Below are positions 7,713-14,821 of a stretch of DNA of 37,697 nt, piece after piece. Below the pieces are notes generated by a model, which ran no database searches, was not told the origin of the DNA, and saw only the letters and a list, made by a program, of their open reading frames with translations. How positions within the stretch are numbered: the first letter of the stretch is position 1; each line of letters opens with the position of its first letter. This DNA comes from a virus, in IMG/VR virus record IMGVR_UViG_3300042691_001458, positions 1 through 37,697 of that record. One strand, given 5' to 3'. Position numbers and translations under genes: made by a program.

Positions 7713-7963
7713 GCAGCGTAAAGTTTGCATCAGGTCGTGACCGCACGGTCGGGCAGTCGGTGCGGTATGCAACGCCTATTGCCTTGTCCGCCACCGGATA
7801 TGAAGGTGCGGTCGTGGCCGGCGAAGACAACCTGATGCACTACAGCACGGGCGCGGCATGGGTGGCACTGGCCCCGGTGCTGTCCACCCTCATAGACGCC
7901 GGTAATGCGGAAACGAATTACAGCGGCGGTGCCCGAATTGATCTAGGGAGCGCGCAGCCGTGA
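7709..7963 (+). CDS. Small virion-type protein before the first collagen fibre
   Basis: This 84-residue product starts at the ATG that overlaps the preceding stop (ATGA). A longer reading from 7637 would run through the previous gene in another frame and is not preferred. It begins [20 protein letters not shown] and includes [20 protein letters not shown] and [20 protein letters not shown], short beta segments of the kind seen in phage tail-fibre accessory modules. It overlaps the fibre gene by GTGA, so its translation is tied to the fibre. It may help attach or trim the fibre. Function unknown. Confidence 0.55.
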
Positions 7964-10662
7964 CCATTAGTGCATCTATCTTTCAGCTTTCTTTGCGCGG
8001 CGACACCCTCGCCCGGTGGACCTCGTTCAATCCGGTTCTTGCCAGCCGCGAGATGGTGTTGGAGACGGATACAAACCGGTTTAAGATTGGTAATGGCACC
8101 ACGCCGTATCTGAGCCTGCCCTACGGCGGCATCATCGGTCCGACTGGTCCGCAGGGTACGTCAATCAATGTTAAAGGGACTGTCGCTGCCGTCGGCAATC
8201 TCCCGGCTGCGGGTAACGTCGTCAACGACGCATACATTGTCACCGCCGATGGCGACCTGTACGTTTGGACTGGTTCGGCGTGGGCTAGCGTAGGTCAGAT
8301 CATCGGCCCCACAGGTGGTACTGGCCCCACGGGTCCAACAGGCTCCACTGGTGCAGCATCAACCGTAGTCGGTCCGACTGGACCGACTGGCCCCACTGGC
8401 ACAGCATCAACCGCAGTCGGTCCGACTGGACCTTCTGGTTCAGGACCGACTGGACCCACCGGTCCGCAAGGTGCCGCAAGCACGGCGAGTGGTCCGACCG
8501 GCCCGACTGGCCCACAGGCTACAGGTCCGACAGGACCGACAGGACCGACAGGACCGACCGGTCAGACAGGCGCTGGCTCTACAGTTGCAGGTCCGACAGG
8601 CCCCACGGGTGCAGGCCCTACAGGCCCGACAGGTCCGACAGGACCCACTGGTCCGCAAGGTGACGCAAGCACGGTCGCTGGTCCCACGGGTCCGACAGGA
8701 CCGACAGGTCCGACAGGTGCGACAGGTAACGCAAGCACGGTCGCTGGTCCCACGGGTCCGACAGGTGCGACAGGTGCGACAGGTGACGCAAGTACAGTTG
8801 TCGGTCCTACTGGCCCAACAGGTCCGACAGGTCCGACAGGTGCGACAGGTCCGACAGGTGCGACAGGTCCGACAGGTGCGACAGGTGCGACAGGTGCGAC
8901 AGGTGCGACAGGTCCGACAGGTCCGACAGGTCCGACAGGTGCAACAGGTGACGCAAGCACAGTTGCAGGCCCTACGGGTGCGACTGGCTCGGCCTCCACG
9001 GTTGCAGGTCCGACAGGTCCGACAGGTCCGACGGGTGCAGCAAGCACAGTCGCCGGTCCGACAGGTCCGACAGGTGCGACAGGTAACGCAAGCACAGTTG
9101 CAGGCCCTACGGGTGCAACTGGCTCGGCTTCTACGGTTGCCGGTCCGACAGGTCCGACAGGTCCAACTGGCGCGACTGGTCCCACGGTGTATCCTTCGGC
9201 GGGCGTGGCCATCTCGACCGGCACGGCATGGGATACGTCTGTCTCTCCCGGCACTTCGGGTAACGTCCTGACTAGCAACGGCTCGGCATGGGTGTCGACC
9301 GCAGCGGCGGGCGGCGCGGTTAGTTTCACGCAGAACAGCCGGTCAGCCGACTACACGCTGGTGTTGGGTGATGCAGGCAAGCAGATTTTTCACCCGGCCA
9401 GCGACACAGCCACTCGCACGTACACGATCCCGGCCAACAGTAGCGTCGCCTTCCCCATCGGCACGGTAGTGCTATTTACGGTAGACGATGCTGGTGTGCC
9501 AGTAACCGTTGCCATTACTAGCGACACACTGGTGTTTGGTAGCAACACTACCGGGCCGATAATTGTCCCGTCAAACAACACACTTATGTGTATCAAAGTG
9601 ACGGCCACCAAGTGGATGGCGAATTATTTGTATCAGACAGGTCTCGCATACAAAGGCGAAGTTGTTGCCGTAATCACCAACGGAACACCTTTTGTCTTTG
9701 CCTACCCATGGAGTAGTAGCGGATTTGGTGTTAAGTTTGGTGATCCAGCAACGCTGCCAACGTCCAGCCAAAATCCGGGAATAGGATTTAGTCCATCAGG
9801 TGACGCTATCGCCATTACAACAAATACGTCACCTCGGATTTTTGCCTACCCGTGGTCCGGTTCCGGCTTCGGTGTTAAGTTTGCTGACCCGGCAACACTT
9901 CCCCAAGGTCAAGGGTATTGGGTAGAGTTTAGTCCGTTAGGTGATTCCATTGCCGTGGCGTCCAATGATTCTCCGTATGTCACTGCTTACTCATGGAGCA
10001 GCAGCACAGGCTTTGGAGCTAAGTTTGCTAACCCTTCAACGCTCGGATCGGGAGCGATGTCGGGCGGGGTGTCGTTTAGTCCATCAGGAAATGCAATTTC
10101 TATGGCTAATGACGGTTCGCCATATATCCTTGTTTACCCGTGGTCTAACACTGGCTTCGGCACCAAATATGCTGACCCAGCAACACTACCTGCCAACTTT
10201 GCCCTTGGAAATACTGCGTTTAGCCCCGCAGGAGATGCGATTGCTATTGGACATTTTGGGTCGCCTTATATAACTGCGTATCCATGGTCTGACGCTGGGT
10301 TCGGTACAAAGTTTGCCGATCCCGCTTCACTTCCGGGTCACACGGTTAAAGGTGTAGCATTTAGTCCCGCAGGAGATGCTATTGCTGCCGCTCGTGGCAA
10401 CACCACCGAAACTCATGTCTACCAGTGGTCGTCATCCGGTTTTGGAACTAAGTATGCTATGCCCGCTACGTCGTATAGCGGCGACACTAACAGGGTAGCT
10501 TTTAACCTTCGGGGTAATGCTATCGCTGTAGCTTCAAATGGCGGACCCGGTATCCATGCTTATGCGTGGTCGTCGTCGTCGGGCTATGGGTCAAAATATT
10601 CTAATCCCGCTACGTCGCCAACCGAATCTGGTAAAGGCCTAGCATTCACACTTGTCCCGTAA
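7960..10662 (+). CDS. Collagen-like tail fibre with beta-propeller tip
   Basis: This 900-residue fibre has four visible parts. Residues 1-56 ([40 protein letters not shown]) resemble the Mtd N-terminal domain that anchors fibres and tropism determinants. Residues 65-113 form a small module ([30 protein letters not shown]). Residues about 117-409 are a Gly-Pro-Thr collagen-like shaft broken by short ASTVA-type inserts. After a beta linker (410-565), residues about 565-900 hold seven repeats of roughly 45 residues built on SPYI-AYPWS--GFG-K-ADPATLP and FSP-GDAIA, which predict a seven-bladed beta-propeller. The GTG start overlaps the preceding stop. The propeller is probably the receptor-binding tip. 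The second fibre gene at 13175 shares its first ~60 residues. Adhesion is inferred; the target is unknown. Confidence 0.8.
8308..9186 (+). repeat. Tandem 9-base repeats coding GPT collagen-like shaft (fibre 1)
   Basis: Near-perfect tandem copies of GGTCCGACA (with GGTGCGACA and GGCCCCACT variants) code Gly-Pro-Thr and Gly-Ala-Thr triplets. The longest uninterrupted array lies at about 8815-8950. Regular ASTVA-type inserts (for example near 8350, 8410, 8680, 8740, 8970) break the triplet register. The array is a likely hotspot for copy-number change by slippage. Confidence 0.9.
9652..10659 (+). repeat. Seven ~45-residue repeats, predicted beta-propeller
   Basis: Seven units align on a Y-x-W-S-x-x-G-F/Y-G-x-K-F/Y core followed by P-A-T, and on F-S-P-x-G-D-A-I. 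The W-S core occurs once per unit at about 9708, 9852, 9993, 10140, 10284, 10428 and 10566. The first unit begins with an extra strand ([10 protein letters not shown]) and the last lacks the final one, the arrangement expected for a closed ring in which the ends of the chain share a blade. The units differ more at the DNA level than the collagen repeats, so they are older. Confidence 0.75.
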
Positions 10663-10673
10663 CAGGAACACCC

Positions 10674-13169: not shown

Positions 13170-13174
13170 CGCCA

Positions 13175-14821
13175 ATGCCGATTACCCCGTCATCCACGAT
13201 TGGTTTCGCACTGCGCGGCGATACTCTTGCTCGGTGGACCTCGTTCAATCCGGTTCTCGCCGACCGTGAACTCGTGCTTGAGACGGATACAAACCGGGTT
13301 AAGATCGGCAACGGTACCAGCCCCTACCTTTCGCTTCCGTACGCCGGCATCATTGGTCCGACAGGACCCACGGGTGCAGCTTCGACTGTACCCGGTCCGA
13401 CAGGTCCGGGAGTTGGAGCAACAGGTCCGACGGGTGCCACCGGTGGCGCTGGCCCGACAGGTCCGGGAGTAGGTGCAACAGGTCCGACGGGTGCAACAGG
13501 TCCCTCCGGCACCGGTCCGACTGGAGCCACGGGTGCAGCTTCGACTGTCGCTGGTCCAACAGGTCCTACAGGTTCGGGGCCAACAGGTCCGACGGGTACA
13601 GCTTCGACTGTTGCGGGTCCAACAGGTCCCTCCGGCACCGGTCCGACAGGACCCACGGGCGCAGCATCAACCGTACCCGGTCCGACAGGTCCGGGAGTAG
13701 GTGCAACAGGTCCGACGGGTGCCACTGGTCCCTCCGGCACCGGTCCGACTGGACCGACTGGACCCACGGGTGCAGCATCAACCGCAGCCGGTCCGACAGG
13801 TCCGACTGGCCCACAGGCTACAGGTCCTACAGGTCCGACAGGTTCATCCGGTCCGACAGGTCCGGGAGTTGGAGCGACAGGTCCGACAGGACCCACAGGT
13901 GCGACATCAACCGCAGCCGGTCCGACAGGCCCCACTGGTCCGCAAGGTGCAGCATCAACCGCAGCCGGTCCGACGGGTCCGACTGGCCCACAGGCTTTAG
14001 GTCCTACAGGTTTATCCGGCCCGACTGGTCCGACAGGTCCGCAGGGTGGCGGTCCTACCGGACCGACGGGTACGGCATCAACCGCAGTTGGTCCGACAGG
14101 TCCTTCGGGTAGTGGTCCGACAGGACCCACGGGTGCTGCATCAACCGTACCCGGTCCGACAGGTCCTTCAGGTGGAGGTCCGACAGGTCCCACGGGTACA
14201 GCTTCGACTGTCGCTGGTCCGACAGGTCCAACTGGCACCGGTCCAACAGGTCCGACGGGTGCAGCTTCGACTGTCGCTGGTCCGACAGGTCCTTCGGGTG
14301 GAGGTCCGACAGGTCCAACTGGCCCCGCCTCTACGGTTGCAGGTCCAACAGGTCCTTCGGGTGGAGGTCCGACAGGTCCGACGGGTGCTGCCGGTGGCGG
14401 TCCTACCGGTCCGACAGGTGTTTCGGGAAGTGGTCCTACTGGTCCGACAGGTGTTGGTCCTACGGGTCCAACTGGCGCAAACTCGTCAGCAACTGTTTTT
14501 GCGACTTTAATCGATGTTGTAGCCGGATTATCAATACTTGTACCGTATGCCAACACAACAGGGCGAACTGCGTATTTTACGCTGCAAGTAGATTCGACGA
14601 TATCTGCCGGAGGTAATGGTGCCGCATACATGATAATCACTAGCCCCAGTAATCAATCTTTTGATATGGAACTAAACCAACGAATAAACTCATCCGGAGC
14701 GTCGCAAACTTTTACAGACGTTCTTACAGGAATAGTTCCTCCCGGATGGACAGTGAAATGGACACGTGTTGGAACCGGCATATCTGGTCCATCCACTGCA
14801 AATCTGGTGCTTTTCTCTTAA
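13175..14821 (+). CDS. Second GPT-collagen tail fibre
   Basis: This 548-residue fibre shares its N-terminal ~60 residues ([40 protein letters not shown]) with the first fibre, including a 26-base identical DNA stretch, so the two are paralogues and probably bind the same place on the tail. Residues about 58-436 are a GPT collagen-like shaft with periodic ASTVAGPTG and Gly-Val-Gly interruptions. The C-terminal ~110 residues ([55 protein letters not shown]) form a compact beta domain that differs from the propeller tip of fibre 1. The DNA of this tip is less GC-rich than its surroundings. The role is host binding or particle display, by analogy. Confidence 0.78.
13346..14484 (+). repeat. Tandem repeats coding GPT collagen-like shaft (fibre 2)
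   Basis: The same GGTCCGACA-type units as in the first fibre, here more often broken by inserts such as GCTTCGACTGTCGCT (ASTVA), GGGAGTAGGTGCA (GVGA) and CCTTCGGGTGGA (PSGG). Long near-identical blocks recur within the array (for example around 13550, 13610, 14205 and 14265), which makes recombination within this array, and with the array at 8308-9186, likely. Confidence 0.9.

Follow-up and report, generated by a model that had tools for sequence, protein, structure and literature searches.

A phage gene for an SgtA-like TPR glycosyltransferase, probably directed at the threonines of the neighbouring collagen-like fibres

The 37,697-base virus record IMGVR_UViG_3300042691_001458, analysed over its whole length (the window), encodes two collagen-like fibres whose genes flank those of two putative glycosyltransferases (GTs), P0001 and P0002. 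P0001, a GT2 domain joined to TPRs (GT2-TPR), is probably (we estimate about 0.77) a phage-encoded O-glycosyltransferase of the type of SgtA from C. difficile, acting on the Thr residues of the Gly-X-Thr shafts of the neighbouring fibres, with the 225-residue P0002 extending the glycan. This reading draws on the gene content, the predicted folds, the conserved motifs, signs of purifying selection and the association with Thr-rich collagen. Relatives of P0001 recur near Thr-rich collagen genes in phages and bacteria, and therefore P0001 very probably glycosylates the fibres of its own phage. The region comprises the following genes.

7960-10662, + strand: fibre 1, 900 residues; Mtd_N domain, interrupted Gly-Pro-Thr (GPT) shaft, propeller-like C-terminus; proposed substrate.
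10674-10979, + strand: small open reading frame (ORF), 101 residues; function unknown.
10976-11437, + strand: tail-fibre assembly chaperone (Pfam Phage_tail_APC, 1.4e-18; phrog_4912, tail fiber assembly, 1.3e-16).
11434-12111, + strand: P0002, putative accessory GT-A glycosyltransferase, 225 residues; NDD motif, 11740-11748; putative extender of the glycan.
12108-13169, + strand: P0001, SgtA-like GT2 plus TPR protein, 353 residues; DxD motif at 12354-12362; putative starter of the collagen-Thr O-glycan.
13175-14821, + strand: fibre 2, 548 residues; Mtd_N domain, interrupted GPT shaft, short C-terminus; proposed substrate.

The fibre and GT ORFs lie where the first-pass annotation had placed them, the GT genes in an overlapping gene chain. 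In this + strand structural block the two fibre genes enclose four small genes that overlap by 4 bp from 10674 onward, with a 5-bp gap ahead of fibre 2. Both fibres start with an Mtd_N domain (Pfam 7.1e-8 in fibre 1 and 8.7e-10 in fibre 2), the two copies being 78% identical over 64 residues. PHROG tail-fibre families match both proteins and Pfam Collagen (2.1e-12) matches fibre 1 only. The shafts, at approximately 8128-9186 and 13346-14482, are covered by tandem-repeat arrays and consist of short Gly-X-Y runs interrupted every few triplets by motifs such as ASTVA. Both fibres combine Gly-X-Y tracts with a phage attachment domain, as expected of phage collagen-like tail fibres. Fibre 1 contains 140 Thr residues, including 72 in G-x-T and 48 in GPT, and fibre 2 contains 108, including 69 in G-x-T and 57 in GPT. 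The hundreds of GPT threonines previously attributed to the shafts were thus somewhat of an overstatement, the two chains together holding 105, a number that a trimer would triple. Residues ~560-900 of fibre 1 display the repeats SPYI-YPWS-GFG-K-ADPATLP and a THOC3 propeller match (Pfam 2.3e-4) far below the cut-off; judged by its sequence, fibre 1 may be a collagen fibre tipped by a β-propeller.

P0001 matches Pfam Glycos_transf_2 (1.7e-5) and TPR_2 (3.5e-8). Its predicted structure (AlphaFold2, predicted local distance difference test score 95.6, 33-sequence alignment) places the GT domain at residues 1-~181 and the helical TPR part at residues 186-352. At E<=1e-3 a profile of the catalytic domain matched just four sequences of the PDB: GmaR (6.6e-12), two SunS constructs (SunS 2.7e-8) and 7msk (4.8e-8), the latter being ThuS by the naming of the Foldseek library. 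Rows 1-6 of a Foldseek search with the P0001 model were all SunS or ThuS, and the VIA fold comparison ranked SunS first (Z 22.4 over 264 residues, root-mean-square deviation 3.1), then a match at 21.4 and ThuS at 21.0, the next GT being WrtF at 18.4. SunS and ThuS modify a short bacteriocin peptide, and SunS is named as derived from the SPbeta prophage. They share the overall fold of P0001, including the helical C-terminus (Z 21-22), but are only 14-17% identical to it, and P0001 gave no match at E<=1e-3 to the NCBIfam SunS model TIGR04195 (cut-off 350 bits), which its relative in locus L316 matched at 38.8 bits. GmaR, the flagellin O-GlcNAc transferase of Listeria and the closest PDB sequence to the catalytic domain, carries a TPR domain after its catalytic domain that is proposed to bind the substrate (PMC9638930); it differs in its length of 637 residues, with a linker and a C-terminal antirepressor domain where P0001 ends in the TPR region, and in having flagellin as substrate. 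With GmaR, SunS and ThuS leading by profile and SunS and ThuS by fold, the nearest solved relatives of P0001 are protein or peptide GTs.

Across 34 aligned sequences including P0001, 39 columns are invariant, among them D33-T-G-S, R60-F-D, D83-x-D-E and H137-E; the DxD residues D83 and D85 are invariant in the alignments of 34 and of 33 sequences. The comparison of P0001 with its counterpart in locus L002 gave dN/dS (non-synonymous over synonymous divergence) values of 0.071/0.80, and the ratio was low in the five of six relative pairs for which it was computable, which indicates that the gene is under constraint. P0001 displays no membrane-like segment (maximum Kyte-Doolittle value 1.0).

The closest functional precedent is SgtA, which has 358 residues, a GT-A domain and four TPRs, and whose gene lies immediately upstream of bclA3 (PMC7157674). 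Recombinant SgtA transfers β-O-linked N-acetylglucosamine (GlcNAc) onto Thr of peptides from the BclA3 GPT collagen region; it is metal-dependent, prefers Mn2+ over Mg2+ and, of three donors tried, used UDP-GlcNAc only (PMC7157674). P0001, at 353 residues, displays the same domain order and a gene directly before a GPT collagen gene; the likeness is one of length, domains and gene position, SgtA being known here by description. The settings differ, SgtA and BclA3 belonging to the spore exosporium and P0001 to a phage structural block with tail-type fibres and a second, unrelated GT. Together with the solved relatives, this precedent supports the earlier reading of the GT2-TPR protein as a protein glycosyltransferase.

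Relatives of P0001 were found in at least 599 viral stretches, of which the best 80 were kept; the samples collected in this work are first-found or best-matching rather than random. A collagen ORF was counted in a flank if it held at least 10 triplets, and Thr statistics were taken on ORFs of at least 20. On this basis 66 of the best 80 loci carry a collagen ORF, as do all 40 of those whose flanks reach 4 kb or more upstream and 2 kb or more downstream, one of which (L001) is the sequence of the window itself; the other 40 loci are too short in their flanks for this count, and 26 of them still show collagen. In 14 of the 40 fully flanked loci the nearest collagen ORF lies no more than 100 bp from the enzyme gene, in 30 no more than 3 kb, and the largest distance is 7.2 kb; Thr occupies a median of 0.52 of the Y positions of the nearest collagen, with a minimum of 0.38. 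These loci represent 28 GT clusters at 90% identity. The 36 collagen C-termini long enough to compare fall into 13 clusters at 30% identity, each beside a Thr-rich shaft and the enzyme; thus the tips vary while shaft and enzyme stay constant.

The phage records matching P0001 number 69, and seven were looked at: DSL-LC01, a human-faeces fragment and five regions of jumbo and Alcaligenes phages. The enzyme of DSL-LC01, an Actinomycetia phage, is 45% identical to P0001, and two annotated collagen genes end ~3-4 kb upstream of it, the collagen frames of this phage having Thr at 23 of 33 and 30 of 44 Y positions; in the same phage (L083, 7433-10077) the GT2-TPR gene overlaps a gene annotated as tryptophan halogenase by 4 bp. 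In the human-faeces phage fragment the enzyme gene lies directly 3' of a collagen ORF with Thr at 10 of 30 Y positions.

The association was also approached from the collagen side, by three DNA-pattern scans of viral contigs that are independent of the enzyme, followed by a filter for real collagen ORFs. The filter removed 7 of 120 GPT loci (including L148 and L189, despite their GT2-TPR matches), 14 of 117 non-Thr loci defined by GP[KNEDQH] and 27 of 114 GPA loci; a locus matched by several scans kept its first identifier and was counted once. Among the 113 GPT, 103 non-Thr and 87 GPA loci retained, with median lengths of 8.8-9.1 kb, matches to a hidden Markov model of the P0001 family occurred in 23, 2 and 0, respectively (Fisher 1e-5 and 1e-6). 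Ordered by rising Thr fraction of the collagen, the enzyme was present in 1/68, 1/75, 3/56, 7/65 and 13/39 loci, and the effect of Thr persisted once locus length and tract length were entered in a logistic model (1000 permutations, p 0.001). The scans matched 27 GT frames, which form 8 clusters at 40% identity and 18 at 60%. A weaker signal was given by PF00535 above its cut-off over whole records, found in 20 of the first 50 GPT loci and 10 of the first 50 non-Thr loci. As the Thr content of a collagen proves nothing by itself, the argument for glycosylation is this dependence of the enzyme on Thr content.

Within its own lineage the window could be compared through its internal virion protein (phrog_511), which it encodes together with a major head protein (phrog_267), both by PHROG matches. 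The internal virion protein is shared by 79 loci, and exclusion of 7 with less than 4.5 kb upstream left 72, of which 5 have the enzyme and a Thr-rich collagen, none the enzyme alone, 1 a collagen alone (11 triplets, 0% Thr) and 66 neither (Fisher 4e-7, a value that ignores relatedness). On a marker tree built by a quick method, with L517 left out, the five positives need two changes, which supported branches force, so that enzyme and collagen came or went jointly at least twice. The survey of other phages called for by the first-pass annotation, run in these several ways, favours co-occurrence for the GT2-TPR enzyme.

The same joint coming and going of enzyme and fibre would suit a protein GT acting on a different protein of the virion or the host, or on Ser/Thr in the non-collagen interruptions and tips of the fibres, the collagen linkage being hitch-hiking in a mobile cassette, the more so as the N-domain and the chaperone mostly follow: a window-type Mtd_N is present in 5/5 enzyme-bearing lineage loci and 1/67 others, and chaperone relatives in 5/5 and 8/67. 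The fold serves acceptors as varied as the SunS peptide and GmaR flagellin, and distant jumbo-phage relatives lie in structural gene blocks free of collagen. This explanation is nevertheless unlikely given the 13 clusters of C-terminal tips against a constant Thr-rich shaft, and the recurrence of the Thr-rich collagen pairing in contigs from several bacterial groups, described below. The chaperone had itself been considered a core partner of the module; with relatives in only 16 of the 40 fully flanked GT2-TPR loci and in 8/67 enzyme-free lineage loci, despite 5/5 enzyme-bearing ones, it was withdrawn. Freshwater phages of Ca. Planktophila described in 2023 have genomes that encode both GTs and collagen-like proteins, and DNA protection or cell-wall modification was suggested for the GTs (PMC10202952). 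Such glycosylation of modified bases in phage DNA is highly improbable for P0001, as its gene is located in the structural block, it is related to peptide GTs that carry a TPR-like domain, and the lineage comparison ties it to collagen.

The pairing extends to contigs of cellular genomes. A sample of 80 relatives (L558-L637), 40-66% identical to P0001 and possibly including some prophage or phage contigs, displays collagen, mostly Thr-rich, in the flank of 52. Both flanks reach at least 3 kb in 40 loci, of which 24 contain collagen, within 3 kb in 22 cases; the Thr fraction of the nearest collagen has a median of 0.73. The contigs are assigned to Clostridia, Bacilli, Planctomycetes, Verrucomicrobia, Opitutae, Sphingomonadales and others. 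At L607 (10055-12213, Lacrimispora) two GT2-TPR-like ORFs stand in tandem, the second judged from its start, and the 10-kb flanks are free of collagen ORFs.

The cellular loci also bear on a different function, in which the GTs modify host lipopolysaccharide, capsule or teichoic acid against superinfection and owe their position to a variable host-interaction region. Phage GTs near tail fibres have been read in this manner, those of pelagimyophages being interpreted as O-antigen modifiers (PMC7029224); PHROGs and several phage records label the GT2-TPR family 'beta-1,4-glycosyltransferase', and the fold of P0002 matches polypeptide and polysaccharide GTs about equally well. Such a role predicts neither that the enzyme should follow the Thr content of collagen fibres nor the collagen pairing in cellular genomes, and it fits poorly with solved relatives that act on proteins or peptides and with the lack of a membrane-like segment in P0001. 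We regard it as quite unlikely, and glycosylation of the collagen Thr as the better explanation.

Several observations nonetheless weigh against the proposed glycosylation of the shafts. No GT2-TPR relative was found in the available stretch of 90 of the 113 GPT loci; Thr-rich collagen may often be enzyme-free, or be served by another GT, or the gene may lie beyond the fragment. The lineage comparison rests on two changes, three of the five positives being near-identical and one the window itself. In the five jumbo and Alcaligenes phage regions fetched, no collagen ORF surrounds the distant P0001 relative; there (L085-L089) it lies between DNA ligase and head protease genes. Collagen is missing from 16 of the 40 flanked cellular loci, including those of Lacrimispora and Hungatella, and a few of the nearest cellular collagens are Thr-poor (0.09-0.19 in L608, L630 and L634). 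The wider enzyme family thus has other acceptors. SgtA also acted on Ser peptides (PMC7157674), so that a strict Thr specificity is not given. Thr occupies 31.6% of Y positions over all bacterial collagens and 48.3% in Gram-positives, which the review reporting these values explains by hydration, describing bacterial collagens as mostly unglycosylated (PMC8968730). Nor does every phage collagen require a glycan: the prophage collagen EPclA, a collagen-like phage fibre like those of the window, differs in being unglycosylated as expressed in E. coli, and the melting temperature of its collagen is 42 °C (PMC3368898).

The first-pass annotation had named P0002 (11434-12111) a GT-A enzyme, a call for which the sequence is weak (Pfam GT2 0.054, below the cut-off) and which the predicted fold supports (AlphaFold2 score 82.9; VIA Z 14.5-16.6 against GT-A folds). 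The scores against ppGalNAc-T2 (Z 16.6) and chondroitin polymerase (16.1) are close, polypeptide and polysaccharide GTs being about tied. The 25 aligned rows of the family, in which L316 and L543 are the same contig, share IPTMW, a near-invariant N103, invariant D104-D105 and GD near the C-terminal end; P0002 thereby unites a GT-A fold with a DxD-like motif. Searched as a single sequence, it retrieved only itself from viral contigs, no phage record and nothing meaningful by sequence in the PDB, and a two-sequence profile found 38 other loci (L543 and L316 of this set being one contig). Collagen lies near only 10 of these 38, a further count against the two-enzyme scheme, and the P0002 family is therefore not collagen-linked. 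A GT2-TPR-like gene is present in 10 of the 38 loci, several of them near-copies, each time with its frame overlapping the P0002-like frame. The closest relatives of the window (L002, L003 and L006) keep the enzyme with collagen fibres on both sides and gave no match to P0002, so that the GT pair between fibres is seen in this phage only. The earlier proposal that the GTs serve the fibres is supported for the GT2-TPR enzyme, whereas the family of the 225-residue protein is not associated with collagen. That the GTs are accidental neighbours of the fibres was also considered; the lineage and Thr-content comparisons oppose this for the GT2-TPR enzyme only. P0002 belongs to another family than P0001 and is perhaps an accessory enzyme, extending or modifying a glycan that P0001 would have begun. 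In L521 (6847-11926) the P0002-like and GT2-TPR-like genes overlap in a run that, read by eye, also has GT-like and apparent nucleotide-sugar dehydrogenase ORFs; in L316 (10898-12664) the P0002 relative precedes an ORF resembling, again by eye, a sugar aminotransferase.

In the mechanism we propose, which adds catalysis, the sugar, the site, the order of the two enzymes and the benefit to the observations above, P0001 would act as a soluble enzyme in late infection. The sugar placed on the Y-position Thr of both fibre shafts would most likely be GlcNAc, with UDP-GlcNAc of the host as donor, and the TPR domain would hold the fibre chain, probably while it trimerises or earlier. The GT-A protein P0002 would then probably extend or alter the glycan. 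In a triple helix without hydroxyproline such a glycan would provide stability and hydration; it may also protect the fibres against proteases or non-specific binding. Thr-rich fibre and enzyme would travel together between phages. A (Gly-Pro-Thr)n triple helix is reported to form only if it is galactosylated, and prolyl hydroxylation is not known from tailed phages, although many make collagen-like fibres. Glycosylation of Thr is named among the collagen-stabilising mechanisms in a paper that ascribes the stability of EPclA to Pro and charged residues (PMC3368898).

Both halves of this scheme have precedents. The GTs of mycobacteriophage virion glycosylation are reportedly phage-encoded, in work by Freeman et al. 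of 2023. PMC12619734 describes how mycobacteriophages glycosylate proteins of their own virions. In mycobacteriophages the modified sites differ in being capsid and tail-tube C-termini rather than collagen shafts. In Bacillus thuringiensis a putative GT gene lies two genes upstream of that for the Thr/Ser-rich collagen F-BclA (PMC11952670). Glycosylation of collagen Thr by TPR-containing GTs on spores and virion glycosylation in mycobacteriophages are thus already known; what would be new is SgtA-type collagen glycosylation on phage fibres, and no report linking TPR-GT collagen glycosylation with phage fibres was found in the open-licence literature.

The remainder of the window adds a few observations. 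The small ORF at 10674-10979 displays no family match better than E 0.015 in Pfam and PHROG searches, and its relatives occur in 2 of the 5 enzyme-bearing lineage loci. The primase and helicase genes lie on the opposite strand to the fibre block. Scans for promoters (7 promoter-like sites against a shuffle mean of 3.0) and terminators (5 terminator-like sites against 5.7) were uninformative. A single ORF of 2456 residues at 23966-31336 matches only PHROGs of unknown function, and a 99-bp tandem repeat of 2.1 copies at 21097-21308 lies within the ORF 20740-21969.

An SgtA-like phage enzyme could help to explain the Y-position Thr of some phage collagens and the stability of their shafts. On balance we lean towards a broader view, in which a Thr-rich collagen fibre and an SgtA-like TPR GT form a widespread, horizontally moving module and O-glycosylation of Thr takes the place of prolyl hydroxylation. 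As the family recurs near Thr-rich collagens across bacterial groups, G-X-Thr with a neighbouring GT2-TPR gene would represent a general prokaryotic code for collagen glycosylation. As a sequence rule, this combination predicts glycosylated phage fibres and bacterial collagens, and the family that PHROGs and several phage records call 'beta-1,4-glycosyltransferase' would become one of protein glycosyltransferases. The finding is relevant to fibre stability and host recognition, and the enzyme-substrate pairs to the production of glycosylated collagen in bacteria.

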